From: an uncultured Campylobacterales bacterium | GTDB taxonomy: Bacteria; Campylobacterota; Campylobacteria; Campylobacterales; Arcobacteraceae | Assembly (NCBI GenBank): GCA_947494995.1 | Contig: CANLWY010000001.1 | Coordinates: 310,001-374,000 of the forward strand | Direction of reading: 5' to 3' | DNA length: 64,000 nucleotides | In this document: one piece after another, positions 46,658 to 63,276 of the stretch | Layout: each line of letters begins with the position of its first letter | Position numbering within the stretch: the first letter of the stretch is position 1 | Translations under genes and position numbers: made by a program | The notes under the pieces: model-generated | What the model saw: only the letters and a program-made list of their open reading frames with translations | What the model was told of the DNA's origin: nothing | The model's database searches: none

Positions 46658-46685
46658 GCATAGAAAAGCCCCATATTTCTATGCT
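46658..46685 (+). terminator. Hairpin after the NDH-2-like gene
   Basis: GCATAGAAA and TTTCTATGC pair across about 9 bases, followed by TATTTT. Its right arm touches the first GCTATTTT repeat of the operator at 46683. Confidence 0.55.
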
Positions 46686-46711
46686 ATTTTAATGCTATTT
46701 TAGCCTATTTT
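46683..46711. promoter_or_regulatory. Repeat operator A, upstream of the liv operon
   Basis: GCTATTTT at 46683-46690 and 46694-46701 (11 bases apart) and CCTATTTT at 46704-46711 form a tandem of three half-sites. The same repeat occurs before the di-iron oxygenase (52237) and between paaF and paaN (63258). It is a candidate binding site of the PaaX-type regulator. Confidence 0.6.
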
Positions 46712-46889
46712 CATACTTTTTATTACAAAATATAGCTTTTTTATAAAAAAAGTGTTATAAATTTTAATATTTGAAGTTTTTACACTACTATTTTATGTAA
46801 AATTTAAGTTTTTGTGTAATAGAATTTTTCATATCAGGATAGATTAAGCTTTTGTCTTGAGAATTATCTTAATAAATAAGGATGAGAAT

Positions 46890-48038
46890 ATGAAAAAAAT
46901 GTTGAAAGTTTCAATGGGTATTTTAGCTTTAGGTTTAACACTTACTACAGCAAATGCTAAAGATACTATTAAAATTGGTGCATTAGTTGCAGCAACAGGT
47001 CCTGCTTCATTTTTAGGTGATCCAGAATTGAAAACATTAGAACTATATGTTGATAAAATCAATAAAGCAGGTGGTGTTCTTGGAAAAGATTTAGAATTAG
47101 TTGCTTATGATACAGGTGCAAATCCTAAAAAAGCTACTACTTTTGTAAAAAGATTAATCAAGCAAGATGAAGTTGTTGCTATCATGGGTGGGTCTGCATC
47201 TGGTGAAACAATGGCAATATTACCATTTATCAAAAAAGCAAAAATTCCATTAGTATCAATGGCAGGTTCAATTAAAATTGTTGAACCTGTTAAGAAGTAT
47301 GTATTTAAAACTCCAGCTACAGATAGAATGGCTTGTCAAAAAATCTTTGAATATTTAAAAGGTAAAGGTCAAACAAATGTTGCTTTAATTTCTGGTAACG
47401 GTGGTTTTGGAAAATCTATGAGAGGTCAATGTAAAGATGTTGCTGGTGATTATGGAGTTAAAATTGTAGCAGATGAAACTTATGGTCCAAAAGATACAGA
47501 TATGACTTCTCAATTAACAAAGATAAAATCAATGGTAAATGTACAAGCTGTTGTAAATCCAGGTTTTGGTCAAGGTCCAGCTATTGTTACAAAAAACTTT
47601 AAACAACTTGGTATGACTCAAACTTTAGTTCAATCTCATGGGGTTGCTTCTAAAAAGTTTATTGAGTTAACAGGAAATGCAGGTGAAGGTGTAATTGTTG
47701 CTTCTCCACCAGTTGTAGTAGCATCTTTATTAGAAGATTCAAATCCTATTAAAAATGTTGCTCTTCAATATATTAAAGATTACGAAGGTAAATATAATTC
47801 TCCTGTTTCTACATTTGGTGGATATGCGTATGATGCACTTAATATTATTGTAAATGCAATGAATAAAGCAAATTCAGCAGAACCAAAAGCTATTAGAGAT
47901 GCCATCGAACAAACTAGCTCTTATGCAGGATTAAATGGAATATTTAATATGAGTAAGAAAGATCACTTAGGTTTAGATATTAACTCTGGTATTAAAATGC
48001 TAGAAATTAAAAACGGTGATTGGATATTAGCAAAGTAA
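46890..48038 (+). CDS. Branched-chain/aromatic-acid ABC transporter substrate-binding protein
   Basis: A signal peptide (cleavage after TANA) precedes a type I periplasmic binding protein of the LivJ family (IKIGALVAATGPASFLG, GVLGKDLELVAYDTGANPKKA). The ATG at 46890 has AAGGATGAG upstream; the earlier TTG at 46857 would put extra codons before the signal peptide and is rejected. It leads livHMGF. Because the operon ends with an enoyl-CoA hydratase and lies in a phenylacetate region, the ligand may be an aromatic or fatty acid rather than leucine. Confidence 0.92.
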   Translation: MKKMLKVSMGILALGLTLTTANAKDTIKIGALVAATGPASFLGDPELKTLELYVDKINKAGGVLGKDLELVAYDTGANPKKATTFVKRLIKQDEVVAIMGGSASGETMAILPFIKKAKIPLVSMAGSIKIVEPVKKYVFKTPATDRMACQKIFEYLKGKGQTNVALISGNGGFGKSMRGQCKDVAGDYGVKIVADETYGPKDTDMTSQLTKIKSMVNVQAVVNPGFGQGPAIVTKNFKQLGMTQTLVQSHGVASKKFIELTGNAGEGVIVASPPVVVASLLEDSNPIKNVALQYIKDYEGKYNSPVSTFGGYAYDALNIIVNAMNKANSAEPKAIRDAIEQTSSYAGLNGIFNMSKKDHLGLDINSGIKMLEIKNGDWILAK

Positions 48039-48042
48039 AGTC

Positions 48043-48912
48043 ATGGTTGAATTATTACAATACTCATTTGGTGGTTTAACAGTTGGATTCATCTACGCAT
48101 TAGTAGGTCTTGGATTTACTGTAATTTATAACTCAAGTAAAATCATAAACTTCTCTCAAGGGGAGTTTGTGATGATAGGTGGAATGGCAGCAGTATTTTT
48201 ATCATACATGAAGTTTCCATTTGTTTTAGCATTTCCCTTAGCAATAGTTTTATCTGCGTTAATTGGATATATGCTTTTTAAATTAGTTTCAATGTCTAGT
48301 AACTCTTCGGTTACTTCACTGATTATTTTAACTTTAGGTTACTCAATTTTTGTAAGAGGCGCGTCACAGGTTGTATTTGATAAACAAATGCATACTTTGC
48401 CAGCATTTATAAGTGATACACCAATTTCTATATTTGGTGCAACTATAACACCTCAAGCAATTTTAGTAATTGTTGTTTCACTTTGTATAGTATTTGGGTT
48501 GTATTACTTATTTAATAAAACAAAGATTGGAAAAGCAATGCTTGCAACTGCAGATAATAAAGATGCTGCAAAACTTGTAGGTATTTCAGTTAAAAAGATT
48601 TTAATTTGGAACTTTATGATTTCTGCAGGAATTGCAGCAATTGGTGGAATTGTATTAACTCCAATTACATCAACAAATTATGAAATTGGAATTATGTTAG
48701 GTCTTAAAGGTTTCTGTGCAGCTATTATTGGTGGTATAAGTAATCCCTTTGGTGCAGTATTTGGAGGAGTTCTACTTGGAATTTTAGAATCTTTCGTTGC
48801 TGGATATTTAAGTAGTGAATATAAAGATGCAGTTGCATTTGTTGTATTACTTCTAATTTTATTCTTCTTCCCTGGTGGTTTATTTGGGGCTAAGAAGTCA
48901 ACAAGAGTATAG
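48043..48912 (+). CDS. livH: ABC transporter permease, LivH type
   Basis: 289 residues with about eight membrane segments. The family features are GFIYALVGLGFTVIYN at the start, LIILTLGYSIFVRGASQ, and the cytoplasmic EAA-like loop near GLKGFCAAIIGGISNP. It forms the channel together with LivM. It lies 4 bases after the binding-protein gene. Confidence 0.94.
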   Translation: MVELLQYSFGGLTVGFIYALVGLGFTVIYNSSKIINFSQGEFVMIGGMAAVFLSYMKFPFVLAFPLAIVLSALIGYMLFKLVSMSSNSSVTSLIILTLGYSIFVRGASQVVFDKQMHTLPAFISDTPISIFGATITPQAILVIVVSLCIVFGLYYLFNKTKIGKAMLATADNKDAAKLVGISVKKILIWNFMISAGIAAIGGIVLTPITSTNYEIGIMLGLKGFCAAIIGGISNPFGAVFGGVLLGILESFVAGYLSSEYKDAVAFVVLLLILFFFPGGLFGAKKSTRV

Positions 48913-48921
48913 GTAATTGTT

Positions 48922-49884
48922 ATGGGAAATAAAGGTGTATTTTTAGATAGAGGTATTATTACAACAATTATTGTATTAAGTATAATTCCTTTTTTATTAC
49001 AAAACTCATTTCATTATGAAGTGGCAATTATGTGTATGTTAAATGCGGTTATCTGTATTGGGCTTAATATGCTTGTTGGATATACAGGTCAAATTTCATT
49101 AGGACATGGTGCTTTTGCTGGACTTGGTGCATATGTTGCAGTAATTTTATCTACAACTTATGAGTTTGATCCAGTTCTTAGTATTATCATTTCAGCTATT
49201 GTTTTAGCTGCAATGGCGTTTTTCATTTCAAAACCAGTTTTAAAACTAGAGGGGCACTATCTTGCTATGGCAACATTGGCAGTTGGTATTATTATTTCAC
49301 TTGTTCTTACAAATGAAGATGAACTAACAGGTGGTCCAGATGGTATGGGAGTATCAGAATTTCATATTTTAGGTTATGTATTTGAAAATGATATTCAATG
49401 GTATGTCTTATCAGCTATTTTCTTAGTATTTTCTATTTGGGCTTTACAAAATGTAGTTAATTCTCCATTTGGAAGAATCTTGAGATGTATTAGAGATTCA
49501 GAAACTGCTGCTAAAGCAATTGGTACAGATGTGCCTTATTATAAAACTTATGTATTTGTAATTTCTGTTATTATTGCAACAATTGCAGGTTCTTTATATT
49601 CATACTATACGGGATTTATTTCACCTGAAGAATCAGGGTTTATGAGATCAATTGAATTAGTAGTAATGATTGTATTTGGAGGACTTGGAAGAATTTATGG
49701 AGCAGTATTTGGAGCTATTATTATTACGGCTCTTCCTCAGTTTTTAACATTCTTACACGACTATGAACATATGGTATTTGGTGCAATTATTATATTTGTA
49801 ATGATTTTCATGCCAAAAGGTATCGTTTCTTTATTCGATGTCTTAAAATTTGAAAAATCAAAAGAGGTAAAGGAGAGTAAATGA
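48922..49884 (+). CDS. livM: ABC transporter permease, LivM type
   Basis: 320 residues, polytopic, with GLNMLVGYTGQISLGHGAF, the characteristic LivM sequence, and the cytoplasmic loop RDSETAAKAIGTDVPYYK. It pairs with LivH. The stop overlaps livG by 4 bases. Confidence 0.94.
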   Translation: MGNKGVFLDRGIITTIIVLSIIPFLLQNSFHYEVAIMCMLNAVICIGLNMLVGYTGQISLGHGAFAGLGAYVAVILSTTYEFDPVLSIIISAIVLAAMAFFISKPVLKLEGHYLAMATLAVGIIISLVLTNEDELTGGPDGMGVSEFHILGYVFENDIQWYVLSAIFLVFSIWALQNVVNSPFGRILRCIRDSETAAKAIGTDVPYYKTYVFVISVIIATIAGSLYSYYTGFISPEESGFMRSIELVVMIVFGGLGRIYGAVFGAIIITALPQFLTFLHDYEHMVFGAIIIFVMIFMPKGIVSLFDVLKFEKSKEVKESK

Positions 49885-50651
49885 GTCTATTAAAAATTGA
49901 AGGAATTTGTAAAAGTTTTGGTGGACTAAAAGCTGTTGATAATATCTCTTTTGATGTTGAAGAGGGAACAATTCATGCATTAATTGGTCCAAATGGAGCG
50001 GGTAAGACAACTTTAGTAAATATGATTTCGGGTATTTATACAGTTGATGAAGGAAGAATCTATTTTAGTGATGAAGAGATTACAAATGTTCCTACTCATA
50101 AACTTGTAAATAAACATATTATGAGAACATTTCAAAATCTAGAAATATGTGAAAATATGACAGTTATGGAGAATGTTCTTTTAGGCTTTAATATTTACAT
50201 GAATAAGAATCTTTTAAAATGTTCTTTTCAGTTTGAGTCAATCTTAGATGATGAAGATAAGTTTACACATATTGCTTTATCCCATTTAAAAAGAGTAGGA
50301 CTTGAATATATGGCTGATACACTTTGTTCAGATTTATCGTATGGAGTATTAAAAAAAGTTGAAATTGTAAGAGCTTTATGTACTAGTCCAAGGCTATTAC
50401 TTCTTGATGAACCAGTTGCAGGATTAAATGGAACTGAAACAGCAGAGATTGCACAGATTATAAAAGAGATTGCAAGTGAAGGGGTAACAGTACTTCTTAT
50501 TGAACATGATATGAAAATGATTATGGGTATTTCAGACAATATTACTGTTGTAAACTTTGGACAAAAACTTGCAGAAGGAACACCAGAAGAGATATCTTCT
50601 CATCCAGCCGTAATTAAAGCTTATTTAGGAGAAGGATCATTACATGCATAA
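49881..50651 (+). CDS. livG: ABC transporter ATPase, LivG type
   Basis: Walker A GPNGAGKTT, Walker B LLLLDEPVAGL and H-loop IEHDM are present; the signature reads LSYGVLKKVE, where the usual LSGGQ is replaced, as LivG proteins often vary here. A single nucleotide-binding domain of 256 residues. It overlaps livF by 8 bases. Confidence 0.94.
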   Translation: MSLLKIEGICKSFGGLKAVDNISFDVEEGTIHALIGPNGAGKTTLVNMISGIYTVDEGRIYFSDEEITNVPTHKLVNKHIMRTFQNLEICENMTVMENVLLGFNIYMNKNLLKCSFQFESILDDEDKFTHIALSHLKRVGLEYMADTLCSDLSYGVLKKVEIVRALCTSPRLLLLDEPVAGLNGTETAEIAQIIKEIASEGVTVLLIEHDMKMIMGISDNITVVNFGQKLAEGTPEEISSHPAVIKAYLGEGSLHA

Positions 50652-51369
50652 ATCAGATTTAGTATTAAATATAGAAAAACTTGATTGTCATTATGGGCAT
50701 ATTCATGTATTACAAAATATTAACCTTGAAGTACATAAAGGTGAGATTGTAGCTTTAATTGGTGCAAATGGTGCTGGGAAAACTACACTTATGAGAACAA
50801 TTTCTGGATTAAAAGAGCAAAATAAAGGTGAGATTACTTATAAAGACAATATTCCTATTACAAATTCAGCTCCTGAAAAAAGAGTTAAACTTGGAATTGC
50901 ACAAGTTCCAGAAGGAAGAGAACTTTTCAAATCTTTAACAGTAGAAGATAACCTCATGCTAGGGGCCTTTACTAGAAACGACAAAGAAGAGATTGCAAAA
51001 GATTTAGAATTTGTATATGAAAAGTTTCCTATTTTGTTAGAGAAAAAAGATTTACCCTCAGGCAATCTTTCAGGTGGACAACAACAAATGCTTGCAATTG
51101 GAAGAGCTTTAATGTCTAAACCAGATTTATTACTGATGGATGAACCATCTATGGGACTTGCTCCTGTAATAGTAGAAGAGATTTTTGCATTTATTGAAGA
51201 GCTTAAAAAACTTCATATGACAGTATTTTTAGTTGAACAAAACTCATATTTTGCTTTAACTATCTCTGATAGAGCTTATGTATTAGAAAATGGTGAAATA
51301 GTTTTAAGTGGTAACTCAGATGAACTTGTAAAAGATCCAAGAGTAAAAGAAGCATATTTAGGAATGTAA
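50644..51369 (+). CDS. livF: ABC transporter ATPase, LivF type
   Basis: Walker A GANGAGKTT, signature LSGGQQQM, Walker B LLLMDEPSMGLAP and H-loop VEQNS fit LivF (241 residues). It completes the five-gene importer, which carries its cargo across the inner membrane with the periplasmic binding protein. Confidence 0.95.
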   Translation: MHKSDLVLNIEKLDCHYGHIHVLQNINLEVHKGEIVALIGANGAGKTTLMRTISGLKEQNKGEITYKDNIPITNSAPEKRVKLGIAQVPEGRELFKSLTVEDNLMLGAFTRNDKEEIAKDLEFVYEKFPILLEKKDLPSGNLSGGQQQMLAIGRALMSKPDLLLMDEPSMGLAPVIVEEIFAFIEELKKLHMTVFLVEQNSYFALTISDRAYVLENGEIVLSGNSDELVKDPRVKEAYLGM

Positions 51370-51372
51370 AAA

Positions 51373-52152
51373 ATGGAATATAAATATATAATAGTTGAAA
51401 AACAAGATAATGGTGTTGGAATAATTACACTAAATAGACCAAAAGCTTATAATGCTTTGTGTACGCCACTACTTGATGAGGTTTCATCTGCAATAAAAGA
51501 TTTTGATAGTGATAATTCTATTGGAGCAGTTGTTTTAACAGGTGGAAATAAAGTATTTGCTGCTGGTGCAGATATTAAAGAGATGGCTGATCTTGGTTTT
51601 GCAGATGCATATAATAATGAGTTTGTAAAAAAAGAATGGTTTGCTCTTGAAAAACATACTAAACCAATGATTGCAGCAGTTTCTGGATTTGCACTTGGTG
51701 GTGGTTGTGAAATGTCCATGCTTTGTGATATTACTATTTGTGATACAAGTGCAAAATTTGGTCAACCAGAAGTTAAGATTGGAACAATGCCAGGTGCGGG
51801 TGGTACTCAAAGGTTAACAAAAGCAGTAGGAAAAGCAAAAGCAATGCAGATGTGTCTAACTGGAGATATGATTGATGCTAATGAGGCAAAAGAGTATAAG
51901 TTAGTAGCAAAAGTTGTTGAAGAGGGTACGGTAGTTGATGAAGCTAAATCTATGGCAGCAAAAATTGCATCAATGTCTCAACCTGTTGTAAGACTTATAA
52001 AAGAATCAATTAATAACTCATATGAATCTACACTTCAAGCTGGGCTTGAATCTGAACGAAAATCTTTTTATACTACTTTAGCATTAGAAGATAGAATTGA
52101 AGGAATGAATGCTTTTGTTGAAAAAAGAAAAGCAGACTTTTCAAATAAGTAA
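51373..52152 (+). CDS. Enoyl-CoA hydratase (crotonase family)
   Basis: Both catalytic Glu of classical enoyl-CoA hydratases are present, in GGGCEMSM and FGQPEVKIG, with oxyanion-hole stretches FAAGADIKEM and GALGGG-like FALGGGCE. It hydrates 2-enoyl-CoA. It follows livF by 3 bases, so uptake and CoA-ester degradation are joined in one operon. It resembles PaaF at 62403 but is clearly a different gene copy, so it may process another CoA ester of the same pathway. Confidence 0.9.
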   Translation: MEYKYIIVEKQDNGVGIITLNRPKAYNALCTPLLDEVSSAIKDFDSDNSIGAVVLTGGNKVFAAGADIKEMADLGFADAYNNEFVKKEWFALEKHTKPMIAAVSGFALGGGCEMSMLCDITICDTSAKFGQPEVKIGTMPGAGGTQRLTKAVGKAKAMQMCLTGDMIDANEAKEYKLVAKVVEEGTVVDEAKSMAAKIASMSQPVVRLIKESINNSYESTLQAGLESERKSFYTTLALEDRIEGMNAFVEKRKADFSNK

Positions 52153-52236: not shown

Positions 52237-52287
52237 AAATAGCAAATAAATAGCATTATATTATAATAAAAATCCCATAAAATAGGC
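52237..52287. promoter_or_regulatory. Repeat operator B, upstream of the di-iron oxygenase
   Basis: The complement of GCTATTT occurs at 52237-52243 and 52248-52254 (11 bases apart), and the complement of GCCTATTTT at 52279-52287. The 300-base gap (52153-52452) is otherwise very AT-rich. It is the same repeat as at 46683 and 63258, in opposite orientation. Confidence 0.55.
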
Positions 52288-52452: not shown

Positions 52453-53481
52453 ATGGCAGGTTCAAAAGAAAAAATTGCTGGTACGATGGAGTTTCCACCA
52501 CCAACACCACAACCGAATATTTATCCATTAAGTTGGGAGAATGTAACTACAAAACTACAAGAAGTTTGGGAAGCATCTCAAAGAGAGTATTGGGATCCAG
52601 AAAAATTACCTTGGGATACATTTGATGTAACAAAATACACTTGGGAACAAAGAGAGTCAATTGCTTATTGGTGGACAATTCTATCAGTATTTGATGCATC
52701 TGCACCACCAGTATTTGCTTCAGCATTAATTAAAACATATGAATTACACGAAGAAGATGTAGTTAGAAGATGTTTCTTCTCTGTTACAAGAGATGAACAA
52801 AATCATGAACAAATGTGTGGTTTAGTAATTACTAAATTGCTAGAGCACCCAGATCCAATAACATATGAGCCAAAAACTGATATTGGTAGAAGATTACAAA
52901 AAAATGCTAAATGGTTGTACTACAATGGTGGTAGATATTGGGATGGATTTAAAAATGCAGTTCCTAAGTATTCACTTGCAGTACTATTTTCATCATTCCT
53001 AATGGGTGAAATTGCAGCAGCTACAATTTTCCATCAGATGGCAGCAGGTTGTAAAGAACTTGTATTTAAAGAAGGTTTTTCAAAAATTGGTAAAGATGAA
53101 GGTAGACATATGGCTATCGTTCTTACTTTAATGGAAAGAGACTATCCAAAACTATCTGATGAAGATAAAACAATTATTACTAAGCAGATTAGAGCAGGTT
53201 ATCTTTTCTTATCAGCAGTATTATTTGAGCCACCATTAGAGTTTTGGGATGTTCCTGAAGATTTCATTGAAAATCAAAGAGAAGGTGAAAGGTATGCTAG
53301 AGAAGCTGGTTTCTTTATTCCTGATTATGAAACAAAAAAAGAAAACTGGAAAAAAGCTATGCTTAACTTAAAAGGTGTATTAGATAAATATGATACAGAA
53401 TTCCCAGCAATTCCAGAAGTTGGAATTACAGGAAAAGAGATTAGTGATATAGATATGGAAGATATTATTCCAGTATTTTAA
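52453..53481 (+). CDS. Ferritin-like di-iron oxygenase, candidate aromatic (acyl-CoA) oxygenase
   Basis: 342 residues with a four-helix ferritin-like core. Two EXXH motifs are clear, E115-Q-N-H118 (RDEQNHEQ) and E216-G-R-H219 (KDEGRHMA), with E186 (MGEIAAATIFHQ) between them and D81 or a Glu on the first helix. This is the ligand pattern of a carboxylate-bridged di-iron site. It is not similar to PaaA, PaaC or BoxB as I know them. The next gene encodes a ferredoxin-reductase, so it likely activates O2 with electrons from NAD(P)H. The place in a paa region suggests an aromatic ring substrate, perhaps phenylacetyl-CoA; this is inference. AGGAG precedes the ATG. Confidence 0.72.
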   Translation: MAGSKEKIAGTMEFPPPTPQPNIYPLSWENVTTKLQEVWEASQREYWDPEKLPWDTFDVTKYTWEQRESIAYWWTILSVFDASAPPVFASALIKTYELHEEDVVRRCFFSVTRDEQNHEQMCGLVITKLLEHPDPITYEPKTDIGRRLQKNAKWLYYNGGRYWDGFKNAVPKYSLAVLFSSFLMGEIAAATIFHQMAAGCKELVFKEGFSKIGKDEGRHMAIVLTLMERDYPKLSDEDKTIITKQIRAGYLFLSAVLFEPPLEFWDVPEDFIENQREGERYAREAGFFIPDYETKKENWKKAMLNLKGVLDKYDTEFPAIPEVGITGKEISDIDMEDIIPVF

Positions 53482-53512
53482 AAAATAAATTATATATAAC
53501 CAGGAATTTGAT

Positions 53513-54529
53513 ATGAAGAAAATAGTTATACAACCATCAGGAAAACAAATAGATTGTCCCTCAGGGGAAACAGTTTTATCTGTTCTTGAAAAACAAGGAT
53601 ATGCTCTACCCAACAACTGTAGAGCAGGTGCCTGTGGAGAGTGTAAAATAAAAGTTTTAAGTGGTGAGTTTGATCAAGGTTTTATTATGGACATGGCTTT
53701 ATCTCAAGAAGACAGAGATAAAGGTTATGGGCTTATGTGTATGGCTAAACCTATTTCTGATGTATTAGAGATTGAATTTGGTACAGAAGATGCAAAACCA
53801 AAATTATTTCCACCGGTTGAGAATTCTTGGCATATTGTAATAGATAAGATTCATCGAACAGAAAAAATCTTGGAACTTAAATTAGCTCCATTAGGCAAAG
53901 CGATAAAATTTTGGCCTGGTCAATATGCAATGATTGGTAATGAAACAAATGGACATCCATTAAGACCTTACTCTATTGCAAACTCCCCTCGATCAGATGG
54001 AGAATTATCGTTTATTATTACAAAAGAGCCTAATGGTAAAACAAGTCCATGGATTCATGATGAAGTAAATATAGGTGATAATATTAAAATTAATGCTCCT
54101 TATGGAACTTTCTTAGGAGATCCTAGTGTTGATACTCCAATCCTTTGTCTTGCATCTGGTTCAGGATTGGCTCCTATATTATCATTATTAAATGCTTATC
54201 TAAGTAGAGGGCATAAAAACCCTGTTACATTACTATTTTCAGCTAAAACCAAAGCTGATTTATTGGATTATGGTAAATTAAAATATTTAGAGTCTAAATA
54301 TGTTAATTTTAAATATAAATATACATTGACTCAAGAGAGTAACGAAACAGGTGGTTTAGAAGGAAGAGTAGATGTAGTATTACCGCAACTATTACCTTCT
54401 CTTTCTAACTATTCAATTTATATTGCAGGTGGAGTTTCTTTTGTAGGAGCTTGTAAAGAGACTGTTCAAAAACTAGGTGCTCAAGAAGAACTTATCCACA
54501 TGGAAGAGTATTTTGCTCAACAAGTTTAG
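53513..54529 (+). CDS. Oxygenase reductase with N-terminal [2Fe-2S] ferredoxin and FAD/NAD domains
   Basis: A plant-type ferredoxin domain carries C36, C41, C44 and C76 (NCRAGACGECK, GLMCMAKP). An FNR-type flavin domain follows (HPLRPYSIANSPRS) and then a nucleotide-binding domain (LASGSGLAPILSLLNAY). The order ferredoxin-FAD-NAD is that of BenC, DmpP and MmoC; PaaE has the reverse order. It should feed electrons to the di-iron protein 31 bases upstream. A large inverted repeat and a terminator follow. Confidence 0.9.
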   Translation: MKKIVIQPSGKQIDCPSGETVLSVLEKQGYALPNNCRAGACGECKIKVLSGEFDQGFIMDMALSQEDRDKGYGLMCMAKPISDVLEIEFGTEDAKPKLFPPVENSWHIVIDKIHRTEKILELKLAPLGKAIKFWPGQYAMIGNETNGHPLRPYSIANSPRSDGELSFIITKEPNGKTSPWIHDEVNIGDNIKINAPYGTFLGDPSVDTPILCLASGSGLAPILSLLNAYLSRGHKNPVTLLFSAKTKADLLDYGKLKYLESKYVNFKYKYTLTQESNETGGLEGRVDVVLPQLLPSLSNYSIYIAGGVSFVGACKETVQKLGAQEELIHMEEYFAQQV

Positions 54530-54618: not shown

Positions 54619-54652
54619 AATAAAACTTAGGCTTCCCATCCTAAGTTTTATT
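54619..54652. terminator. Bidirectional terminator between reductase and paaX-like gene
   Basis: A perfect 13-bp stem (AATAAAACTTAGG and its complement) with an 8-nt loop serves the convergent reductase and repressor genes and overlaps the repressor stop codon. Confidence 0.85.
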
Positions 54653-55577
54653 TTATCCCTCCAAATCTATTAAAATAGAATTTATCAAGTTTAGGAGTAT
54701 TTCCTCCTACAGTAAGTAGATTATCTCTTACATAATCATTTGCTTGGTGATGTATTGAAGCATAAATTGATTCAACTAATGAAGATGCAGCTTTCCCTAA
54801 CCAATCTATTGATACTAACTCATTTCCCAGTTTTGGATCAAATAATAGGGCTCTTCTATATTCATGAATAAGTAAAACTCTTAACATAAAACACTGTTTT
54901 GGAGTAAATTGATCAATTGGTGTTTTTAAAGAGAATACTTTTCTAAATTTTGTAATAAAATCTTGATATCTCTCTTCAACATCGTTTAAATCCCAGTAAG
55001 TATGAACCATATCTTTAATCATCTCTCTATTCATAGGCATATGAATAGGTCCTTTTATTAAAAGTACATCATTTTGAAGTTCATGTTTGATTAGAATATC
55101 TTGCATATACTCCATTTTATAGTGTGGATGTAGGTGTACATGCTTAGATGGATTTGCAAAACCTTCTTTTTTAAGGACTTTTGCAAGTTCTACTTCTGAT
55201 GATGGTTTTACCCCATTTGTAAATAGAACTATCCAGTCTCTATCATCTTCTTGTTCATCATAAGCATATACACTATAGTGTGCTTTAATAAATCTATCAA
55301 TAGCGAAATCACTTAAAGAGTAGTAGCTTTCTCTACCAAACTTTTTTGAACTTAACCATCCTTCTTTTGTAAGTCTAAATATTGATGTTCTTGTAAGTTT
55401 TTCGCTTACATCAAACTCTTCCATAAATTTTACAAGAGACCCTAACCAGATTGTTCCTCCATAAGGGAAAACTGTATCTCCAAAAAAAGTAATAATTAAA
55501 GATTTAGCCTTTGGACTCATCTCTTCTAGTAAACTTTTTAAGTATTCATCAACTTCATTATACTCTGTATTACTCAA
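54648..55577 (-). CDS. paaX: PaaX-family transcriptional repressor
   Basis: An N-terminal winged helix (MSPKAKSLIITFFGDTVFPYGG, LGSLVKFMEEFDVSE, RTSIFRLTKEGWL) is followed by the PaaX central and C-terminal domains (RDWIVLFTNG, CFMLRVLLIHEYRR, PKLGNELVSIDW). PaaX of E. coli represses paa genes and is released by phenylacetyl-CoA. Here it sits between the oxygenase genes and the paaFGHIJK operon; the tandem GCTATTT repeats at three promoters are its likely targets. The start is TTG with AGGA upstream; no ATG is close. Confidence 0.88.
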   Translation of the reverse strand: MSNTEYNEVDEYLKSLLEEMSPKAKSLIITFFGDTVFPYGGTIWLGSLVKFMEEFDVSEKLTRTSIFRLTKEGWLSSKKFGRESYYSLSDFAIDRFIKAHYSVYAYDEQEDDRDWIVLFTNGVKPSSEVELAKVLKKEGFANPSKHVHLHPHYKMEYMQDILIKHELQNDVLLIKGPIHMPMNREMIKDMVHTYWDLNDVEERYQDFITKFRKVFSLKTPIDQFTPKQCFMLRVLLIHEYRRALLFDPKLGNELVSIDWLGKAASSLVESIYASIHHQANDYVRDNLLTVGGNTPKLDKFYFNRFGGIK

Positions 55578-55685: not shown

Positions 55686-55997
55686 ATGAATAAAAATATA
55701 GTAAAAGATTTTGAAAATCTTTTTGAAAAAAATCAAATTCCTTTTATGGAAATAACAAGTAGTAAAGAGAAAAATCAAAATCTAATAATAAAAGTATATT
55801 TTCCTAAAATAGTGGCCAATATTTGTAAGTTTTTAAATGATAATTTTGGATTAGAAAATAAAGAGAATATTGTGATAAAAAAAGATAAAGAAGGTTATCA
55901 CAAAGTTGATTTATCAGTGATTTATAATAATGAAAAAATAGATATAAAAATCCACTCAATTCTTCAACATACTTGGGGTATAGCTAATAAACTATGA
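55686..55997 (+). CDS. Small protein with possible RelA/SpoT-like fold
   Basis: The 103-residue product has a C-terminal pattern (GYHKVDLSVIYNNEKI, then IKIHSILQHTWG) that recalls the end of RelA/SpoT synthetase domains (GY-S-H, EIQIRT...HAW). The central catalytic Arg and Asp motifs are not evident, so it is probably degenerate or unrelated. The ATG at 55686 has AAGGA five bases before it; GTG at 55665 is rejected. Its 3' end overlaps the convergent gene at 55984 by 14 bases. Confidence 0.5.
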   Translation: MNKNIVKDFENLFEKNQIPFMEITSSKEKNQNLIIKVYFPKIVANICKFLNDNFGLENKENIVIKKDKEGYHKVDLSVIYNNEKIDIKIHSILQHTWGIANKL

Positions 55998-56571
55998 CTT
56001 CGTCTAAAGATATATATTCATTAATATTTGGAACCATATTCTTATAAACCTTTACTCCTTTTTGTTTATCCCATAAACAAGAATGAGTTATAAACTCTAG
56101 TGATGGTTCATGATATCTTTTTGTATAGTTTGCAAGGTTTAATAACTCTTCATTTACACTATTTGATTTTGTAACGATATAAACATTACCTAAACTAAAA
56201 GTATTATGATGTTTTAAACAGTACTCAAAATTATCAACTCCTTCATATATCAAAGCAGTATCCCAAAAGAATAATTCATTGTTATATATCTTTAAAGTTA
56301 TATAACTATGAGTTAAAATATGATTATTAAGTTTGTTTACTTCTAAAGCTAGTTTTTTTAGTTCTTCTAAATTAAACTGTTTTACTAAGCTATAACCTTT
56401 TGTTGTTTTATTAAAAGAGAAACCTAGTTCTATTAGTTTGTTATGTTCAAAAGTATTAGTTTCTTTTGGAGTTCCTAAGGTTTTTTGAGAAGAGATTACA
56501 TTAGAAATAAAATCAGAAGAGTCTACTTCTTCTTTTGTTTTCACTTCATGTTTTACTTCTAAGTAATTCAT
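55984..56571 (-). CDS. Unknown protein at the end of the paa operon
   Basis: 195 residues, soluble, no recognised family. It has a charged N-terminal 45 residues and a mixed alpha/beta remainder (SYITLKIYNNELFFWDTALIY, GNVYIVTKSNS). It lies 8 bases after the flavodoxin-like gene and is probably the last gene of the paaF-to-end message. Its role in aromatic degradation is unknown. Confidence 0.6.
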   Translation of the reverse strand: MNYLEVKHEVKTKEEVDSSDFISNVISSQKTLGTPKETNTFEHNKLIELGFSFNKTTKGYSLVKQFNLEELKKLALEVNKLNNHILTHSYITLKIYNNELFFWDTALIYEGVDNFEYCLKHHNTFSLGNVYIVTKSNSVNEELLNLANYTKRYHEPSLEFITHSCLWDKQKGVKVYKNMVPNINEYISLDEVIVY

Positions 56572-56579
56572 AGTTTTTC

Positions 56580-57113
56580 CTATTTTAATATTGCTTCTTT
56601 AAATTTTGGTGCTAGTTCTTCAATCTTCTCATCACTTAAATTTTGCATTGCTCTATATGTGTAAAATGGTTCAACGACTTTCATTCCACAAAATTTTGAG
56701 GTATAAATATATGGAGTTAAACACTCATCTACACTTTTATAATCCCCTGAGTAAGCAGCTTCATGACCACCCATTGAAACAGCAAGCATAAACTCTTTTC
56801 CGTCTAATTCTCTTCTTTCATAACCTTCTTTTGTAACATCAAAAGCAAAACCTATTGTATAAACTTTATCTATCCACTCTTTTAAAATAGATGGTGCATT
56901 AAACCAGAACATTGGGAATTGAAAAACTATCTTATCAGCTTTTCTAATTGCTTCTTGTTCTGCTTCCATATTGATTTTATAGTCTGGATATAGAGCTTTT
57001 AAATCTCGAATCTCAACATTATCAAGATTCTCAATCTCTTTTGAGAATCTTTTATTTATTCTTGATATTTGCATATCATCATGGGCTTGTATTATTAAAA
57101 TTTGTTTAGACAT
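56580..57113 (-). CDS. NAD(P)H quinone oxidoreductase-like flavoprotein
   Basis: A flavodoxin-fold protein of the NQO1/KefF/MdaB family: ILIIQAHDDMQISRINKRF at the start, FQFPMFWFNAPSILKEWIDKV in the middle and VSMGGHEAAYS. It would reduce quinones by two electrons, perhaps protecting against quinones from aromatic breakdown. 8 bases after paaK. Confidence 0.85.
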   Translation of the reverse strand: MSKQILIIQAHDDMQISRINKRFSKEIENLDNVEIRDLKALYPDYKINMEAEQEAIRKADKIVFQFPMFWFNAPSILKEWIDKVYTIGFAFDVTKEGYERRELDGKEFMLAVSMGGHEAAYSGDYKSVDECLTPYIYTSKFCGMKVVEPFYTYRAMQNLSDEKIEELAPKFKEAILK

Positions 57114-57121
57114 GAAAACTC

Positions 57122-58423
57122 CTATAATATTCTTTTATCTACAACTCTTTGAGCTTTACCTTGAGATCTTGGAACTTCTCCATGGTTTTTTACATTTACT
57201 TTAATTGATACTCCAATTCCTGATTTAACTTTATGAACTAGCGTTTTAATAGCTTCAGAAATATCAGTTTGTGAAGCAGTTAATTCTGATTCAATATCAA
57301 TAGTTAAATCATCCATATTACCTTCTCTTGTAATGATTAATTGATAATATGGCGAGAAAGCTTCAATTTTTAGTAGAATCTCTTCGATTTGAGATGGGAA
57401 TACATTCACTCCTCTAATAATCATCATATCATCAGTTCTTGCTTTGATTCTTTTCATTTTTCTCATATTTAATAAATCACCATCATAAAGAGTTGATAAA
57501 TCTTTTGTTCTATATCTAATGATTGGTAGAGCTTCTTTTGTAAGTGTAGTTAAGACTAATTCTCCTTCTTCACCATCACTTAGTGGATTAAAAGTATCTT
57601 TATCTACAATCTCTGGGTAAAAATGATCTTCCCAAATATATAAATCTCCTCTATCTTCAAGAACTTCACAAGCAACACCAGGTCCCATCATCTCAGATAA
57701 ACCATAAATATCAAGCGCTGCAATATCCACTTTTTCTTCAATTGTTCTTTTCATCTCCATTGACCAAGGTTCAGCACCAAAGATACCGATTTTAAGAGCA
57801 GTTTCTCTAGGATCAATTCCTCTATTTTCCATCTCTTCAATGATATTTAACATATATGAAGGGGTAACCATGATTACATTTGCTTTGAAATCATTGATTA
57901 AAGTAACTTGTTTGTCTGTAAAACCACCAGAAGCGGGAACTACTGTACAACCAAGTTTTTCTGCTCCATAATGAGCTCCTAGTCCACCAGTAAATAGACC
58001 ATAACCATATGATACATGTACAATATCACCTTTTGAAGCTCCACCAAGTCTTAATGATCTTGCCATTAAATCAGACCATGTGTCGATATCTTTTCTTGTA
58101 TATCCTACAACTGTTGGCTTTCCTGTTGTACCAGAAGAGGCATGAAGTCTCACAATATCACTCATAGGAGTAGCAAACATACCAAATGGATAATTAAGTC
58201 TTAAATCCTCTTTAGTCGTAAAAGGAAATTTATTAATATCTTCTAAAAAAGTAAAATCATCTGGATGCACCCCATGTTCATCCCATTTTTTTCTATAGTA
58301 AGGAACAAAAGAGTATGCTCTTAATAGAGTATGTTTCATTCTTCTTGTTTGTAAAGCTATAAGTTCATCTTTTGAAACTAAAACTTTTGGATAATAACTT
58401 ACTGTTTTTCTATTATTTTGCAT
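57122..58423 (-). CDS. paaK: Phenylacetate--CoA ligase
   Basis: An AMP-forming ligase with P-loop ASSGTTGKPTVVGYT, YGLSEMMGPGVACE and a C-terminal RSQGKAQRVVDKR. It is 433 residues, the usual PaaK length, and activates phenylacetate with CoA and ATP, the first step of the aerobic phenylacetate route. The start is ATG at 58423 with AAGGA spaced 7 bases; the GTG at 58429 is too close to that site. Confidence 0.95.
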   Translation of the reverse strand: MQNNRKTVSYYPKVLVSKDELIALQTRRMKHTLLRAYSFVPYYRKKWDEHGVHPDDFTFLEDINKFPFTTKEDLRLNYPFGMFATPMSDIVRLHASSGTTGKPTVVGYTRKDIDTWSDLMARSLRLGGASKGDIVHVSYGYGLFTGGLGAHYGAEKLGCTVVPASGGFTDKQVTLINDFKANVIMVTPSYMLNIIEEMENRGIDPRETALKIGIFGAEPWSMEMKRTIEEKVDIAALDIYGLSEMMGPGVACEVLEDRGDLYIWEDHFYPEIVDKDTFNPLSDGEEGELVLTTLTKEALPIIRYRTKDLSTLYDGDLLNMRKMKRIKARTDDMMIIRGVNVFPSQIEEILLKIEAFSPYYQLIITREGNMDDLTIDIESELTASQTDISEAIKTLVHKVKSGIGVSIKVNVKNHGEVPRSQGKAQRVVDKRIL

Positions 58424-58433
58424 GCTCACTTCC

Positions 58434-59651
58434 TTACGATTGTTCTATTTTTTCTATTACCATTGAGATTCCTTGTCCAACGCCAATACACATTGTACAA
58501 AGGCCATATTTCCCACCATTTTGTTCTAGTTGACTTAATGCTGTTAATACAAGTCTAGCTCCACTCATCCCTAATGGATGTCCTAAAGAGATTGCTCCAC
58601 CATTTGGATTGATTCTTTCATCTTTCCAATCAAGACCTAACTCTTTAATCGTTGCTAAACTTTGTGATGCAAATGCTTCATTTAATTCAATAACATCCAT
58701 ATCATCAAGTGTTAAATTCATTTTGTCTAAAATCTTTTTTGATGAATGAAGAGGTCCTATTCCCATAATTCTTGGAGGAACACCAGCTACTGCCATCATA
58801 TTTATCTTAGCTTTTGGTTTTAGATTATATTTCTCAAGCATAGCATGAGAGCAGATTAGTAGTGCGGCTGCACCATCATTTACACCTGAAGCGTTACCAG
58901 CAGTTACAGTTCCACTTTCTTTTTTAAAAGGAGTTCTTAAACTTGATAGTTTTTCTAGTGTTGTGTTTGGTTTTGGATGTTCATCTTTATCAACAATTAA
59001 GTCATCTTGTTTTCTTCTTGGAACTGATATAGGCATTATTTCATTTTCAAAAAATCTTTTTTTATGAGCAGCTTTACATTTTTGTTGAGAGTGGAAAGCA
59101 AATTCATCTTGTTCTTCTCTACTAATATTAAAATCTTCTGCAACATTTTCACCAGTTTCTGGCATAGAATCAACACCATAAAGCTCTTTCATTTTAGGAT
59201 TTGTAAATCTCCAACCAATTGTTGTATCATAAACAGCATTGGCTCTAGTAAAAGCTGTATCAGCCTTTGGCATAACAAAAGGTGCTCTTGACATAGATTC
59301 TGTACCACCTGCAATAATTAAATCGCATTCACCTGCTTTTATAGCTCTAGCAGCAGTTCCAACTGCATCCATACCAGAACCACAAAGTCTATTTATTGTA
59401 GTTCCTCCTGTAGTAATTGGAAGACCTGCTAAAAGTGCTGACATTTTTGCAACATTTCTGTTATCTTCACCCGCTTGATTTGCGCAACCAAAAATAACAT
59501 CATCAACATCTTCCCAATCTATAGAAGGGTTGTTGTCCATAATGTGTTTTATAACCATTGCACCCATATCATCCGGTCTAATAGATGATAAAGAGCCACC
59601 GTAAGCTCCTATTGGAGTTCTGATATAATCAATTATATAAGCTTCATTCAT
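58434..59651 (-). CDS. paaJ: 3-oxoadipyl-CoA thiolase
   Basis: A 405-residue thiolase with acyl-accepting Cys in NRLCGSGMDAV, the His in GGAISLGHPLG and the second Cys in MCIGVGQG. PaaJ/PcaF cleaves 3-oxoadipyl-CoA to succinyl-CoA and acetyl-CoA at the end of the paa pathway. It overlaps paaI by 4 bases. Both thiolysis steps of the pathway can be done by this one enzyme. Confidence 0.95.
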   Translation of the reverse strand: MNEAYIIDYIRTPIGAYGGSLSSIRPDDMGAMVIKHIMDNNPSIDWEDVDDVIFGCANQAGEDNRNVAKMSALLAGLPITTGGTTINRLCGSGMDAVGTAARAIKAGECDLIIAGGTESMSRAPFVMPKADTAFTRANAVYDTTIGWRFTNPKMKELYGVDSMPETGENVAEDFNISREEQDEFAFHSQQKCKAAHKKRFFENEIMPISVPRRKQDDLIVDKDEHPKPNTTLEKLSSLRTPFKKESGTVTAGNASGVNDGAAALLICSHAMLEKYNLKPKAKINMMAVAGVPPRIMGIGPLHSSKKILDKMNLTLDDMDVIELNEAFASQSLATIKELGLDWKDERINPNGGAISLGHPLGMSGARLVLTALSQLEQNGGKYGLCTMCIGVGQGISMVIEKIEQS

Positions 59652-60094
59652 AGTTCATCCTCCTCTAAAATTGTTCCATTAACTGCTCTAGATTTACCTA
59701 TAAAGTGAGCAATTAATTCATCTTTTTGATTTCTAACTTCAATATTGTAGATTCCATTTCTTTTTGATAAGTCTACTTCTTTTCCAATAGCTGTTAAAAT
59801 ATCATTTTCAAAAGCTGGTTTTATATAGGTAATATCGCAAGAGTAACCTACTGTTGGAACATTTCTTCCATTACAAGCATAAGCAAAAGCAGTATCTGCA
59901 AAAGAAAAAATAGCTCCACCTTGACAAGCTCCATGACCATTTAACATAAAGTTTTGAACTTTCATATTAAGTTTTGCATAGCCTTCATCTATAGATATAA
60001 TTTTTACACCTAAATGATTTTCAAATTTAGCTTCTTGGTTCATTTTATTAATACATTTATTTGCTAACTCTTTTGAAGTTAAATTACTACTCAT
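59648..60094 (-). CDS. paaI: Phenylacetyl-CoA-type hotdog thioesterase
   Basis: A 148-residue hotdog protein with LGVKIISIDEGYAKLNMKV, GHGACQGGAIFSFADTAF and a long C-terminal strand series, matching PaaI, which hydrolyses CoA esters that would otherwise accumulate. ATG 60094 is chosen because AAGGGAAA lies 6 bases before and the length fits; an in-frame upstream ATG at 60172 lies inside paaH. Confidence 0.93.
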   Translation of the reverse strand: MSSNLTSKELANKCINKMNQEAKFENHLGVKIISIDEGYAKLNMKVQNFMLNGHGACQGGAIFSFADTAFAYACNGRNVPTVGYSCDITYIKPAFENDILTAIGKEVDLSKRNGIYNIEVRNQKDELIAHFIGKSRAVNGTILEEDEL

Positions 60095-61607
60095 AGTATT
60101 TCCCTTCAATGATTGACTTTTCAATAATACCTCTATCAGCTCTATATCTTGTATCTTTATAGAACGCTTCAAGATTATTTAAAATCTCTAAAGTCTTATC
60201 AATTCCCATTTTATCAGCCCATTTAAATGGACCAATTGGATAATTAACTCCATTTTCCATTGCAATATCAGCTGAAGCTTCATCACAAACACCATTTGTC
60301 ACTGTTGAGCTAGCTTCATTTATTAACATTGCAATAGTTCTTGCAATAATCATTCCTGGACTATCTTTGATAATTAAAGTCTCTTTTCCAATTTGAGAAA
60401 AAAGAGCTGCAATATTTGGGGCAACGTGTTGTTGTGCTAAAAGTGAAGTTGCAATAGTTATTGAAGGCGAAAGTTCATAATCAATATTAAAGTCTATTTG
60501 AGCAATGTTTTTTTCATTTAACTCTTTTGAAATTTCACTTGCCATTTTTCCATTTGCAACAAAAAGTTTAATTTCATTAAACTCAATATACCCATCGCCT
60601 TCTACTTGAATTACTTTTATTTCAGCTTTTTTAAATAGTGGAATTAATTCATCAGCAACACCTAAAGAACCATAAACATAAATTTCAGAAATTTTATTAT
60701 TTGATGGAGTCACTTTGTTAACTTCATCTTTTCCTTGAAGTTTCCCTTCTTCATAGTTATAAAATCCTGCTTCTGATTTTCTTCCAAGTAATCCTGCTTG
60801 TGAAAACTCTTGTTGAGTTAATGATGGTTTAAATCTTGGGTCTTGATAGTATGAGTTAAAAGTTGATTCTGTAACTGAGTAGTTAGTATCATTTCCAATT
60901 AAGTCCATTAGTTCAAAAGGACCCATTCTAAACCTACCTCCAGCTCTTACTATTTCATCAATTGTTGCAAAATCTGATACTCCTTCTTCATAAACTCTTA
61001 AAGCTTCTGCATAGAAAGGTCTAGCAATTCTATTTACAATAAATCCTGGACTTGATTTTACATATACTGCTTTTTTGCCCCAGGCAGTTGCAAGTGCATG
61101 TACATCTTCTACTAGTTGTTTATCGCTTTGAAGCCCTGAAATAACTTCTACAAGTTTCATAATTGGAGCTGGGTTAAAAAAATGCATTCCAATTACTCTG
61201 TCGGGTCTTTTCATTCCATTTGCAAGTGCAGAAATAGAGATAGATGAGGTATTTGATGCAATTACTACATCTTCACAAATCTCTTCAATCTGTTTAAATA
61301 CTTCTTGTTTAATATCTTTGTTTTCAATAATTGCTTCAATTATTAGACTACAAGGAGCTAAATCTTCTATATTCTTAGTAGGTTTCATTAATGAAATAGT
61401 TTTTTCTTTTGCATCTTGCGTCATTTTTCCTTTTTCAACAAGTCTACTTAACTCTTTTTCATTTATTTTCATTGCATTATCAACTGCCCCATCCCAACTA
61501 TCATAAAGTATCACTTCATGACCAGCCTTTGCAGCAACTTGTGCAATTCCTCTTCCCATGATTCCAGCTCCAACAATTCCTATAACTGAATTTGAATCTA
61601 TTCTCAT
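60087..61607 (-). CDS. paaH: 3-hydroxyacyl-CoA dehydrogenase (3-hydroxyadipyl-CoA dehydrogenase)
   Basis: NAD site GIVGAGIMGRGIAQVAAKAG, GMHFFNPAPIMKLVEVI with catalytic His, and two C-terminal 3HCDH domains (KSSPGFIVNRIARPF and a second around DSPGMIIARTIAMLINEA), length 506, as usual for PaaH/PaaC. It oxidises 3-hydroxyadipyl-CoA. It overlaps paaI by 8 bases and follows paaG by one base. Confidence 0.95.
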   Translation of the reverse strand: MRIDSNSVIGIVGAGIMGRGIAQVAAKAGHEVILYDSWDGAVDNAMKINEKELSRLVEKGKMTQDAKEKTISLMKPTKNIEDLAPCSLIIEAIIENKDIKQEVFKQIEEICEDVVIASNTSSISISALANGMKRPDRVIGMHFFNPAPIMKLVEVISGLQSDKQLVEDVHALATAWGKKAVYVKSSPGFIVNRIARPFYAEALRVYEEGVSDFATIDEIVRAGGRFRMGPFELMDLIGNDTNYSVTESTFNSYYQDPRFKPSLTQQEFSQAGLLGRKSEAGFYNYEEGKLQGKDEVNKVTPSNNKISEIYVYGSLGVADELIPLFKKAEIKVIQVEGDGYIEFNEIKLFVANGKMASEISKELNEKNIAQIDFNIDYELSPSITIATSLLAQQHVAPNIAALFSQIGKETLIIKDSPGMIIARTIAMLINEASSTVTNGVCDEASADIAMENGVNYPIGPFKWADKMGIDKTLEILNNLEAFYKDTRYRADRGIIEKSIIEGKYYE

Positions 61608-61608
61608 C

Positions 61609-62400
61609 TTAGTTTCCTTGGAACTTTGGAGCTCTTTTATTTAAGAAAGCACTAACACCTTCTTTATAGTCGTTAGAGTGACCTGCTGCTCTTTGAAGAT
61701 TTTTTTCTAACTCTAGTTGTTCATTTAGAGTGTTATCCATTGATTCATTAAGAGCTTTTTTTATTAGACTTAATCCATATGTTGGTGCAGTTGAGAAATG
61801 AACTGCAAGTTTTTCAACTTCTGCATCAACTTCATCAAGTGAATATACTTTTGAAATAAGTCCATACTCTAAGGCCGTTTGTGCAGATAATTTATCTCCT
61901 AACATACATAACTCTTTTGCTCTTGCCATTCCAACAAGTTTTGGTAAGAAGAATGAGTTACCACTATCTGGTACTAATCCAATTTTACAAAAAGCCTGAA
62001 TGAAACTAGCTTTTTCATTTGCAATTACAAAGTCACAAGCAAGGGCAATACCAACACCAGCACCTGCTGCAACACCATTTACTTTACAAATAACAGGAAT
62101 TTCAAGATTGTAGATAGTCTTAATTAGAGGATTATATTTTCTCTCAATAGACTCGCCTAAATCAAGTTTTTCATCACCATTGTTTACGGATCTATCATTT
62201 AAATCTTGACCTGCGCAAAAGGCTTTTCCTTCCCCTGTTATTACTAGTACTCTAATTGTTTTATCTTTTTTTACTTGACCTAAAGCAGTTTTTAATTCTG
62301 CATGCATTTGCTCATTTAATGAGTTGAATACTTCTGGTCTATTAAATGTAAGAGTAGCTATACCCTCATTTACTTCATATTTTATAGTCTCAAATGACAT
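61609..62400 (-). CDS. paaG: Ring-opening-pathway isomerase PaaG
   Basis: A crotonase-fold protein of 263 residues with FCAGQDLNDRSV and KIGLVPDSGNSFFLPK. The classical second Glu is replaced; the Asp in LVPDSG fits the PaaG isomerase that converts the ring epoxide CoA ester to oxepin-CoA and later moves a double bond. It lies 2 bases after paaF. Confidence 0.93.
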   Translation of the reverse strand: MSFETIKYEVNEGIATLTFNRPEVFNSLNEQMHAELKTALGQVKKDKTIRVLVITGEGKAFCAGQDLNDRSVNNGDEKLDLGESIERKYNPLIKTIYNLEIPVICKVNGVAAGAGVGIALACDFVIANEKASFIQAFCKIGLVPDSGNSFFLPKLVGMARAKELCMLGDKLSAQTALEYGLISKVYSLDEVDAEVEKLAVHFSTAPTYGLSLIKKALNESMDNTLNEQLELEKNLQRAAGHSNDYKEGVSAFLNKRAPKFQGN

Positions 62401-62402
62401 TT

Positions 62403-63173
62403 CTATTGTCCTTTAAAATTTGGTTTTCTTTTTTCTTTAAATGCTTTAATTCCCTCTTTTTTATCAACACTAGCTAAAGTGCCTGAAAAAAGAGTCTTTT
62501 CATATTTTAATGATGCATTAAGTCCATTATCATATGATGCTAAAACAGCACTTTTTATAGCGCTTACAGCAAAAGGTGATTTAGAAGCTATAATTCTTGC
62601 AATCTCTAGACTTCTTATCATTGTTGTTTCTACTGGGACTACTTCTGATACTAAATTTCTCTTTTGTGCAGTTTTAGCATCCATGAATGAACCAGTTAAT
62701 AAAGCTAACATGGTATTTGATTTACCCATAGCTCTTACAGTTCTCTGAGTTCCCCCAGCTCCTGGCATAATTCCTAAGTTGATTTCTGGTTGACCAAACT
62801 GTGCACTATCTCCGCTTATGATAATGTCACAATGCATTGCCAATTCACATCCACCACCTAAACAAAATCCATTTACCGCTGCAATAATTGGCTTCTTGAA
62901 TTCTTTGATAGTTTCCCAATAAGATGTTCTTACATCATTTATAGATTCAATTGCTCCTTTTACTTCTAACTCATTTATATCTGCTCCCGCTGCAAATACT
63001 TTGTTCCCACCAGTTAGAATTACACATCTAATGTCATCACTTGAAGTTGTTAATACTTCAGCTATCTCTTTTAGTGTATTTGTACGAAGTGCATTGTAAA
63101 CCTTTGGTCTATCAATTGTAATTATTAAGATATTTTGATTTTCTACTTCAACTTTAATATCTTCGTAAGCCAT
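62403..63173 (-). CDS. paaF: 2,3-didehydroadipyl-CoA hydratase PaaF
   Basis: An enoyl-CoA hydratase with both Glu (LGGGCELAM and FGQPEINLG) and PGAGGTQR. First gene of the minus-strand paa operon (paaFGHIJK plus two). The start is ATG 63173 with GGAGGG before it; the TTG at 63185 carries no site. It is divergent from paaN, with the repeat operator between them. Confidence 0.92.
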   Translation of the reverse strand: MAYEDIKVEVENQNILIITIDRPKVYNALRTNTLKEIAEVLTTSSDDIRCVILTGGNKVFAAGADINELEVKGAIESINDVRTSYWETIKEFKKPIIAAVNGFCLGGGCELAMHCDIIISGDSAQFGQPEINLGIMPGAGGTQRTVRAMGKSNTMLALLTGSFMDAKTAQKRNLVSEVVPVETTMIRSLEIARIIASKSPFAVSAIKSAVLASYDNGLNASLKYEKTLFSGTLASVDKKEGIKAFKEKRKPNFKGQ

Positions 63174-63257
63174 ATTGCCCTCCAAATTTTATATCTATTT
63201 CAAAAAAACTTGAAAAATTCTAACAAATGTAATATTTATTGAAGCTTAAAAAAATAT

Positions 63258-63276
63258 GCTATTTTATTGCTATTTT
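63258..63276. promoter_or_regulatory. Repeat operator C, between paaF and paaN
   Basis: GCTATTTT at 63258-63265 and 63269-63276, 11 bases apart, followed by CCTATAAAA. It is the same tandem as at 46683 and 52237 and lies in the 207-base divergent promoter region. Confidence 0.6.

Follow-up and report, generated by a model that had tools for sequence, protein, structure and literature searches.

DioA-DioR, a two-gene di-iron protein and reductase pair proposed to act as phenylacetyl-CoA ring epoxidase in Arcobacteraceae and other bacteria

The phenylacetate pathway represents a main aerobic route for the degradation of aromatics. Its epoxidase PaaABCDE acts between the ligase PaaK and the isomerase PaaG, employs carboxylate di-iron chemistry and is composed of PaaA and PaaC (both PF05138) with PaaB, the further component PaaD and the flavin/2Fe-2S reductase PaaE (TIGR02160), which carries its ferredoxin domain at the C-terminus. 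The closest functional analogue of the system described here is the benzoyl-CoA 2,3-epoxidase BoxAB, which likewise performs aryl-CoA epoxidation by means of a single-chain di-iron protein and a reductase, but differs in substrate and pathway. The PaaG step demands an epoxide (pathway summarised in PMC9007349). A pathway survey from 2026 (PMC13186573), in which PaaA and PaaC served as markers, reported configurations without epoxidase, naming no substitute. Here, we describe a gene pair for which the names dioA (oxygenase, DioA) and dioR (reductase, DioR) were coined and which quite probably encodes a two-component, non-orthologous phenylacetyl-CoA ring-1,2-epoxidase that would have replaced PaaABCDE repeatedly and would elsewhere serve as low-oxygen isozyme. 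The novelty lies in the same pathway role being assigned to a different protein family: DioA shares with PaaABCDE the slot between PaaK and PaaG, the proposed carboxylate di-iron chemistry and a flavin/2Fe-2S reductase, but lacks PF05138, consists of one oxygenase chain in place of PaaA-PaaC with PaaB, and has no PaaD. The literature searched yielded neither a description of the DioA-DioR pair nor anything relevant on Arcobacter or microaerobic phenylacetyl-CoA epoxidases; most subscription papers lay outside its scope, and an earlier description is possible.

The stretch of DNA analysed (64,000 nucleotides, hereafter the window) originates from a genome of the Arcobacteraceae (G000; 3.17 Mb, 31 contigs, 99.99 % complete). 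Both genes proposed in the initial annotation are present as ORFs: dioA (52453..53481, + strand) codes for a 342-aa R2-fold di-iron protein, the proposed oxygenase component, and dioR (53513..54529, +) for a ferredoxin-FAD-NAD(P) reductase, the proposed electron donor. Their assignment to a paa region is borne out by the neighbouring genes. Convergent with dioR is paaX (54648..55577, -), encoding the phenylacetate-pathway repressor with PaaX and PaaX_C domains (242 bits, equivalog cut-off 264.6), and the same strand harbours paaK for phenylacetate-CoA ligase (57122..58429; 631.5 bits, cut-off 646.3), paaJ/pcaF for 3-oxoadipyl-CoA thiolase (58434..59651; 653 bits, above cut-off), paaI for hydroxyphenylacetyl-CoA thioesterase (59648..60172; 134 bits, above cut-off), paaH for 3-hydroxyacyl-CoA dehydrogenase (60087..61607; 553 bits, under the equivalog cut-off of 669), paaG for the ring-epoxide isomerase (61609..62400; 355 bits, above the cut-off of 345) and a gene for a PaaF-like enoyl-CoA hydratase (62403..63185). 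Just beyond the right edge of the window, paaN (726 bits, above cut-off) and paaY adjoin. On the + strand, the same cluster as dioA comprises the genes of a branched-chain-amino-acid-type ABC uptake system (substrate-binding protein SBP, LivH, LivM and two ATPases; 46857..51369), as well as one for an enoyl-CoA hydratase (ECH; 51373..52152, +) located 5' of dioA and possibly representing an oxepin-CoA hydrolase, since PaaN is devoid of a hydrolase domain. A flavodoxin-like quinone reductase and a 195-aa protein are encoded between paaX and paaK (55984-57113) and are kept in Arcobacter relatives.

None of the Pfam and NCBIfam families was matched by DioA above cut-off. An alignment of 45 homologs (48-95 % identity) revealed D81, E115, H118, C122, E186, E216 and H219 to be invariant, thus including all five residues of the motif E115xxH118, E186 and E216xxH219 recognised early on. 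In a weak phmmer alignment with ribonucleotide reductase R2F (E 0.04), D81, E115 and H118 coincide with metal ligands of R2F, and Cys122 with its radical tyrosine; D81, E115, H118, E186, E216 and H219 are proposed as the metal ligands of DioA. A ColabFold model (pLDDT 82.8, pTM 0.81), also subjected to a Foldseek search, superimposed on R2lox and R2 structures with Z of about 20 and 3.1 Å over about 265 residues at 11 % identity. The predicted architecture, a four-helix bundle in which two helices carry ExxH-type ligands, places DioA within the R2/ferritin-like di-iron superfamily. Assignment to R2 or R2lox proper was rejected: predicted fold and ligand pattern (D/E - ExxH - E - ExxH) are common to them, but DioA shares only about 11 % identity, possesses an invariant cysteine instead of the radical tyrosine, and has a dedicated reductase within a catabolic operon. 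Across the 45 members, weak similarities to AurF, rubrerythrin and R2 were observed: 41 of them resemble the AurF profile PF11583 (best E 4.5e-6) and 18 the R2 profile PF00268, to which the DioA of the window itself had no match. AurF, the p-aminobenzoate N-oxygenase, is likewise a di-iron oxygenase, but resides in another genomic context, and an identity with it was dismissed at 15 bits for the window's DioA (gathering cut-off 29.6). BoxB was rejected as well, as its profile (TIGR03225) did not match, and no match to PF05138 was obtained with DioA; the earlier statement that the protein does not resemble PaaA, PaaC or BoxB thus holds at the profile level. BoxB and PaaA were not among the fold matches listed, an absence that carries no evidential weight.

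DioR is composed of Fer2 (residues 5-80), FAD_binding_6 (112-200) and NAD_binding_1 (213-314) domains, by which Pfam corroborates the domain order first noted. This order is that of BenC and MmoC, the models for which DioR also obtained its highest NCBIfam scores (165 and 151 bits, far short of the respective equivalog cut-offs of 430 and 500), and is unlike that of PaaE in that the ferredoxin domain is N-terminal; BoxA matched weakly (24 bits, cut-off 459). In contrast to BenC and MmoC, DioR has a presumptive partner that belongs neither to the Rieske oxygenases nor to the multicomponent hydroxylases. R2lox being the nearest fold neighbour of DioA, an accessory role (R2lox-like oxidase, epoxide scavenger or metal protein) beside some other, unrecognised enzyme handling phenylacetyl-CoA in the PaaG-bearing hosts devoid of PaaABCDE was considered, and is judged highly improbable: dioR adjoins dioA in nearly all of the best 80 of 531 loci, a dedicated Fer2-FAD-NAD reductase as in multi-turnover oxygenases, and no further di-iron or Rieske candidate was seen in the paa/dioA cluster. 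In favour of an accessory role, R2lox is not known to possess a reductase-coupled oxygenase function.

Neither paaA nor paaB, paaC, paaD or paaE was detected in the cluster within the window, in agreement with the initial annotation, and its suggestion to look for these genes beyond the window was pursued: PF05138 is absent from the whole host genome by profile search, PaaB and PaaD were looked for, and not found, in the cluster beside dioA, and the BoxB model had no match in the genome. A complete paaABCDE set elsewhere in the genome, which would have counted against a replacement, was not found. Among 104 genomes of the host family, a true PaaG (over 336 bits) is encoded in nine, eight of which are the eight genomes with DioA, all devoid of PF05138. 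The ninth (G098) contains PF05138 twice and no DioA. By gene content, DioA-DioR is the sole candidate for such an enzyme in the host genome and its relatives, and a ring epoxidase is needed there because the substrate of PaaG is an epoxide, which forms the main biochemical argument. The gene order of G098 is paaYN/paaFGHIJK-paaX, and paaEDCBA lies convergent to paaX where dioR-dioA is located in the window, i.e. in the same chromosomal slot. This slot-for-slot exchange is a single observation in an Arcobacteraceae MAG (85 % complete, contig ending inside paaA); contamination is argued against by paa genes 77-90 % identical to those of the window and by the same operator. PaaE of G098 (L017:11981-13843, - strand, contig G098:C3) has 620 aa, an apparently duplicated FAD/NAD module and a single C-terminal 2Fe-2S domain.

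The shared putative operator of the initial annotation was recovered as the identical repeat GCTATTT-N4-GCTATTT located 5' of dioA-dioR (52237..52254, - strand), 5' of the unit of SBP, livHM, ATPase and ECH genes (46683..46700, +) and between the divergent paaF and paaN (63258..63275, +). Exactly three copies are present in the window versus 0.10 expected from shuffled sequences, and four in the 3.17-Mb genome, the fourth (C1:138194) being discarded as pathway site, as it resides within or beside a TRAP-transporter/two-component region with no pathway link. The repeat is a probable binding site of PaaX. The latter two copies are kept in relatives, the one between paaF and paaN including PaaABCDE-bearing G098; the exact copy near dioA is confined to the host genome, the site not being recognisable 5' of dioA in relatives.

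Among 84,980 species genomes, 531 relatives of DioA were verified, for which reason dioA does not represent a chance ORF. The family is rare (two carriers among 398 genomes sampled from the Azospirillum phylum, centre genome included) but widespread: the best 80 of the 531 (76-96 % identity) belong to Campylobacterota, Alpha-, Beta- and Gammaproteobacteria, Bdellovibrionota and Myxococcota. In the tree, dioA of the window groups with Arcobacter and other Campylobacterota. PaaG is present and PaaA/PaaC are missing in 16 DioA-encoding genomes outside the Campylobacterota (G119, G121, G132, G133, G140, G141, G145, G554, G555, G557, G560, G561, G562, G566, G570 and G573), of which G119, G121 and G133 have weak PaaA/PaaC hits of 22-29 bits. 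These genomes are spread over several distinct branches of the tree and include Castellaniella, Azonexus, Sedimenticola, Rhodobium, Magnetospirillum, Telmatospirillum and Polyangiaceae, with Castellaniella caeni, Sedimenticola selenatireducens and Rhodobium orientis being isolates; two Azospirillum encode a weak lone PF05138 paralog only. PaaA/PaaC are missing in 2 of 39 PaaG genomes without DioA versus 9 of 17 with DioA (Fisher p 1e-4), the latter set not being selected for PaaA/PaaC absence and the contrast being somewhat inflated by several MAGs from which paaA/paaC may be missing in the assembly. PF05138 proteins of about 279 aa (83-135 bits) occurring singly, with no PaaA/PaaC pair, were also encountered in G550, G552 and G563 (Bacteriovoracia/Oligoflexia) as well as in G116 and G130 (Azospirillum).

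About three quarters of the non-Campylobacterota DioA hosts examined also keep PaaA/PaaC. The proposal of the initial annotation that the pair takes the place of PaaABCDE therefore stands for the host family, by virtue of complementarity and of the exchange in G098, and fails as a general rule, since most hosts outside the Campylobacterota keep both enzymes. In Marinospirillum and Comamonas, one operon comprises paaK-dioA-dioR-paaABCDE, and in Vitreoscilla dioA, the product of which is annotated as 'hypothetical protein', adjoins paaZ, with paaABCDE located a few genes away. Besides dioR, no consistent neighbours were revealed at the orphan dioA loci of Paraburkholderia, Pseudomaricurvus and other hosts, automatic clustering of neighbouring genes having been applied to AT-rich loci only, as antisense ORFs disturb high-GC loci.

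A distant branch is formed by homologs from Variovorax (L010, L011 and L012; 48-50 % identity) with a reductase gene of their own. Their cluster codes for PaaN (above cut-off), a PaaK-like ligase, MaoC, a PaaG-like hydratase, a thiolase and an ABC uptake system, as well as for indolepyruvate ferredoxin oxidoreductase and a GlcD-like oxidase; PaaABCDE is not encoded in it. By gene content, this set again combines oxepin-type genes with DioA in the epoxidase position, probably for another arylacetyl-CoA, and likely forms an aryl-pyruvate/arylacetyl-CoA pathway not known before.

Since PaaA/PaaC are also kept in dual hosts, DioA may have another substrate there. Carried further, this leads to an explanation in which DioA-DioR oxygenates other arylacetyl- or aryl-CoA esters (e.g., hydroxylated or indole-derived ones) as a peripheral feeder of the paa pathway and does not replace PaaABCDE. 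Besides the coexistence of both enzymes in most hosts, the link of the Variovorax branch to indolepyruvate ferredoxin oxidoreductase and the GlcD-like oxidase and the presence of paaI in the operon of the window speak for such a role. We nevertheless consider it unlikely, as it would leave PaaG without supplier of an epoxide in the 8 Campylobacterota and 16 other genomes, does not agree with the exchange against paaEDCBA, and is at odds with PaaK and PaaG of the window resembling ordinary phenylacetate enzymes.

With respect to a low-oxygen role of the proposed epoxidase in dual hosts, the best 80 of the 531 relatives' loci were scanned for FNR/Anr boxes (TTGAT-N4-ATCAA) upstream of dioA. A perfect box precedes dioA in 18 of the 80 loci versus 0.4 expected; counting one locus per genus, perfect boxes occur in 6 of 48 (0.18 expected) and boxes with at most one mismatch in 12 of 48 (0.75 expected). 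The six genera with perfect boxes are Azospirillum, Azoarcus, Paraburkholderia, Azohydromonas, Pseudomaricurvus and Marinospirillum, among which box cores and spacing differ. All 13 Azospirillum with PaaA/PaaC possess the perfect box, and the two without PaaA/PaaC have lost it. Upstream of other genes at the same loci, the box was detected in 12 of 359 regions, ten of them belonging to one Azospirillum gamma-carbonic-anhydrase-like gene. Ten Azospirillum loci, L047:18356 being one of them, have a perfect FNR-type box (TTGATTGGTATCAA in most) at a distance of about 150-250 bp from a gene for a PaaY-like gamma-carbonic anhydrase. Neither the window nor most sole-enzyme hosts showed the box; among Campylobacterota dioA loci, five of six have at least two mismatches and none but one is significant. 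Sole-enzyme hosts are without the box more often than dual hosts by locus (p 1e-4 to 3e-4) and not by genus (p 0.12 to 0.29), and this relation was retained as a trend only.

In many Proteobacteria that are dual hosts, DioA is probably the low-oxygen isozyme, governed by an FNR/Anr-type activator, and in sole hosts its expression may be constitutive or controlled by PaaX. The oxygen affinity of DioA as well as the binding of FNR and PaaX are inferred. Compatible with the epoxidase function is the view, possible though not favoured, that both enzymes are plain duplicates and that the FNR boxes are a sign of microaerobic regulation in general: boxes are absent from the Arcobacteraceae loci and from the Comamonas loci, the latter having both enzymes, and precede paaA, too, in Marinospirillum. 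A mere duplicate, however, would not account for boxes being specific to the region 5' of dioA when compared with the neighbouring genes, for differing cores and spacing in six genera, or for the distribution within Azospirillum. In Marinospirillum (L061:12292 and L067), FNR-type boxes are located 5' of dioA and between dioR and paaA, a pair which would allow for opposite control of DioA and PaaABCDE. On balance, we lean somewhat towards an R2-fold family of single-chain arylacetyl-CoA ring epoxidases working at low O2, which would act as FNR-controlled isozyme beside PaaABCDE and as full replacement in six or more lineages, most of them microaerophilic or denitrifying.

In the proposed reaction sequence, PaaK would form phenylacetyl-CoA, and DioR would pass electrons from NAD(P)H via FAD and the 2Fe-2S center to the di-iron site of DioA. 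Once reduced, this protein would activate O2 and epoxidize phenylacetyl-CoA at C1-C2 of the ring, the epoxide would be converted to oxepin-CoA by PaaG, ring opening and oxidation of the latter would be conducted by a hydrolase (perhaps the ECH encoded upstream) and PaaN, and PaaF, PaaH and PaaJ would perform the final steps. Substrate and epoxide product of DioA are suggested by the exclusion pattern, the slot exchange and the sole-enzyme genomes outside the Campylobacterota, and electron transfer from DioR is inferred as well.

Because surveys recognise the pathway by PaaA/PaaC (PMC13186573), hosts of DioA-DioR would be scored as lacking it. If the proposed function is true, a two-gene epoxidase would represent an independent solution to the ring epoxidation of CoA esters and would be much easier to produce and investigate than PaaABCDE. 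A testable function is thereby offered for a protein family now annotated as 'hypothetical protein', and the operation of an O2-dependent aromatic pathway by microaerophiles could be explained.
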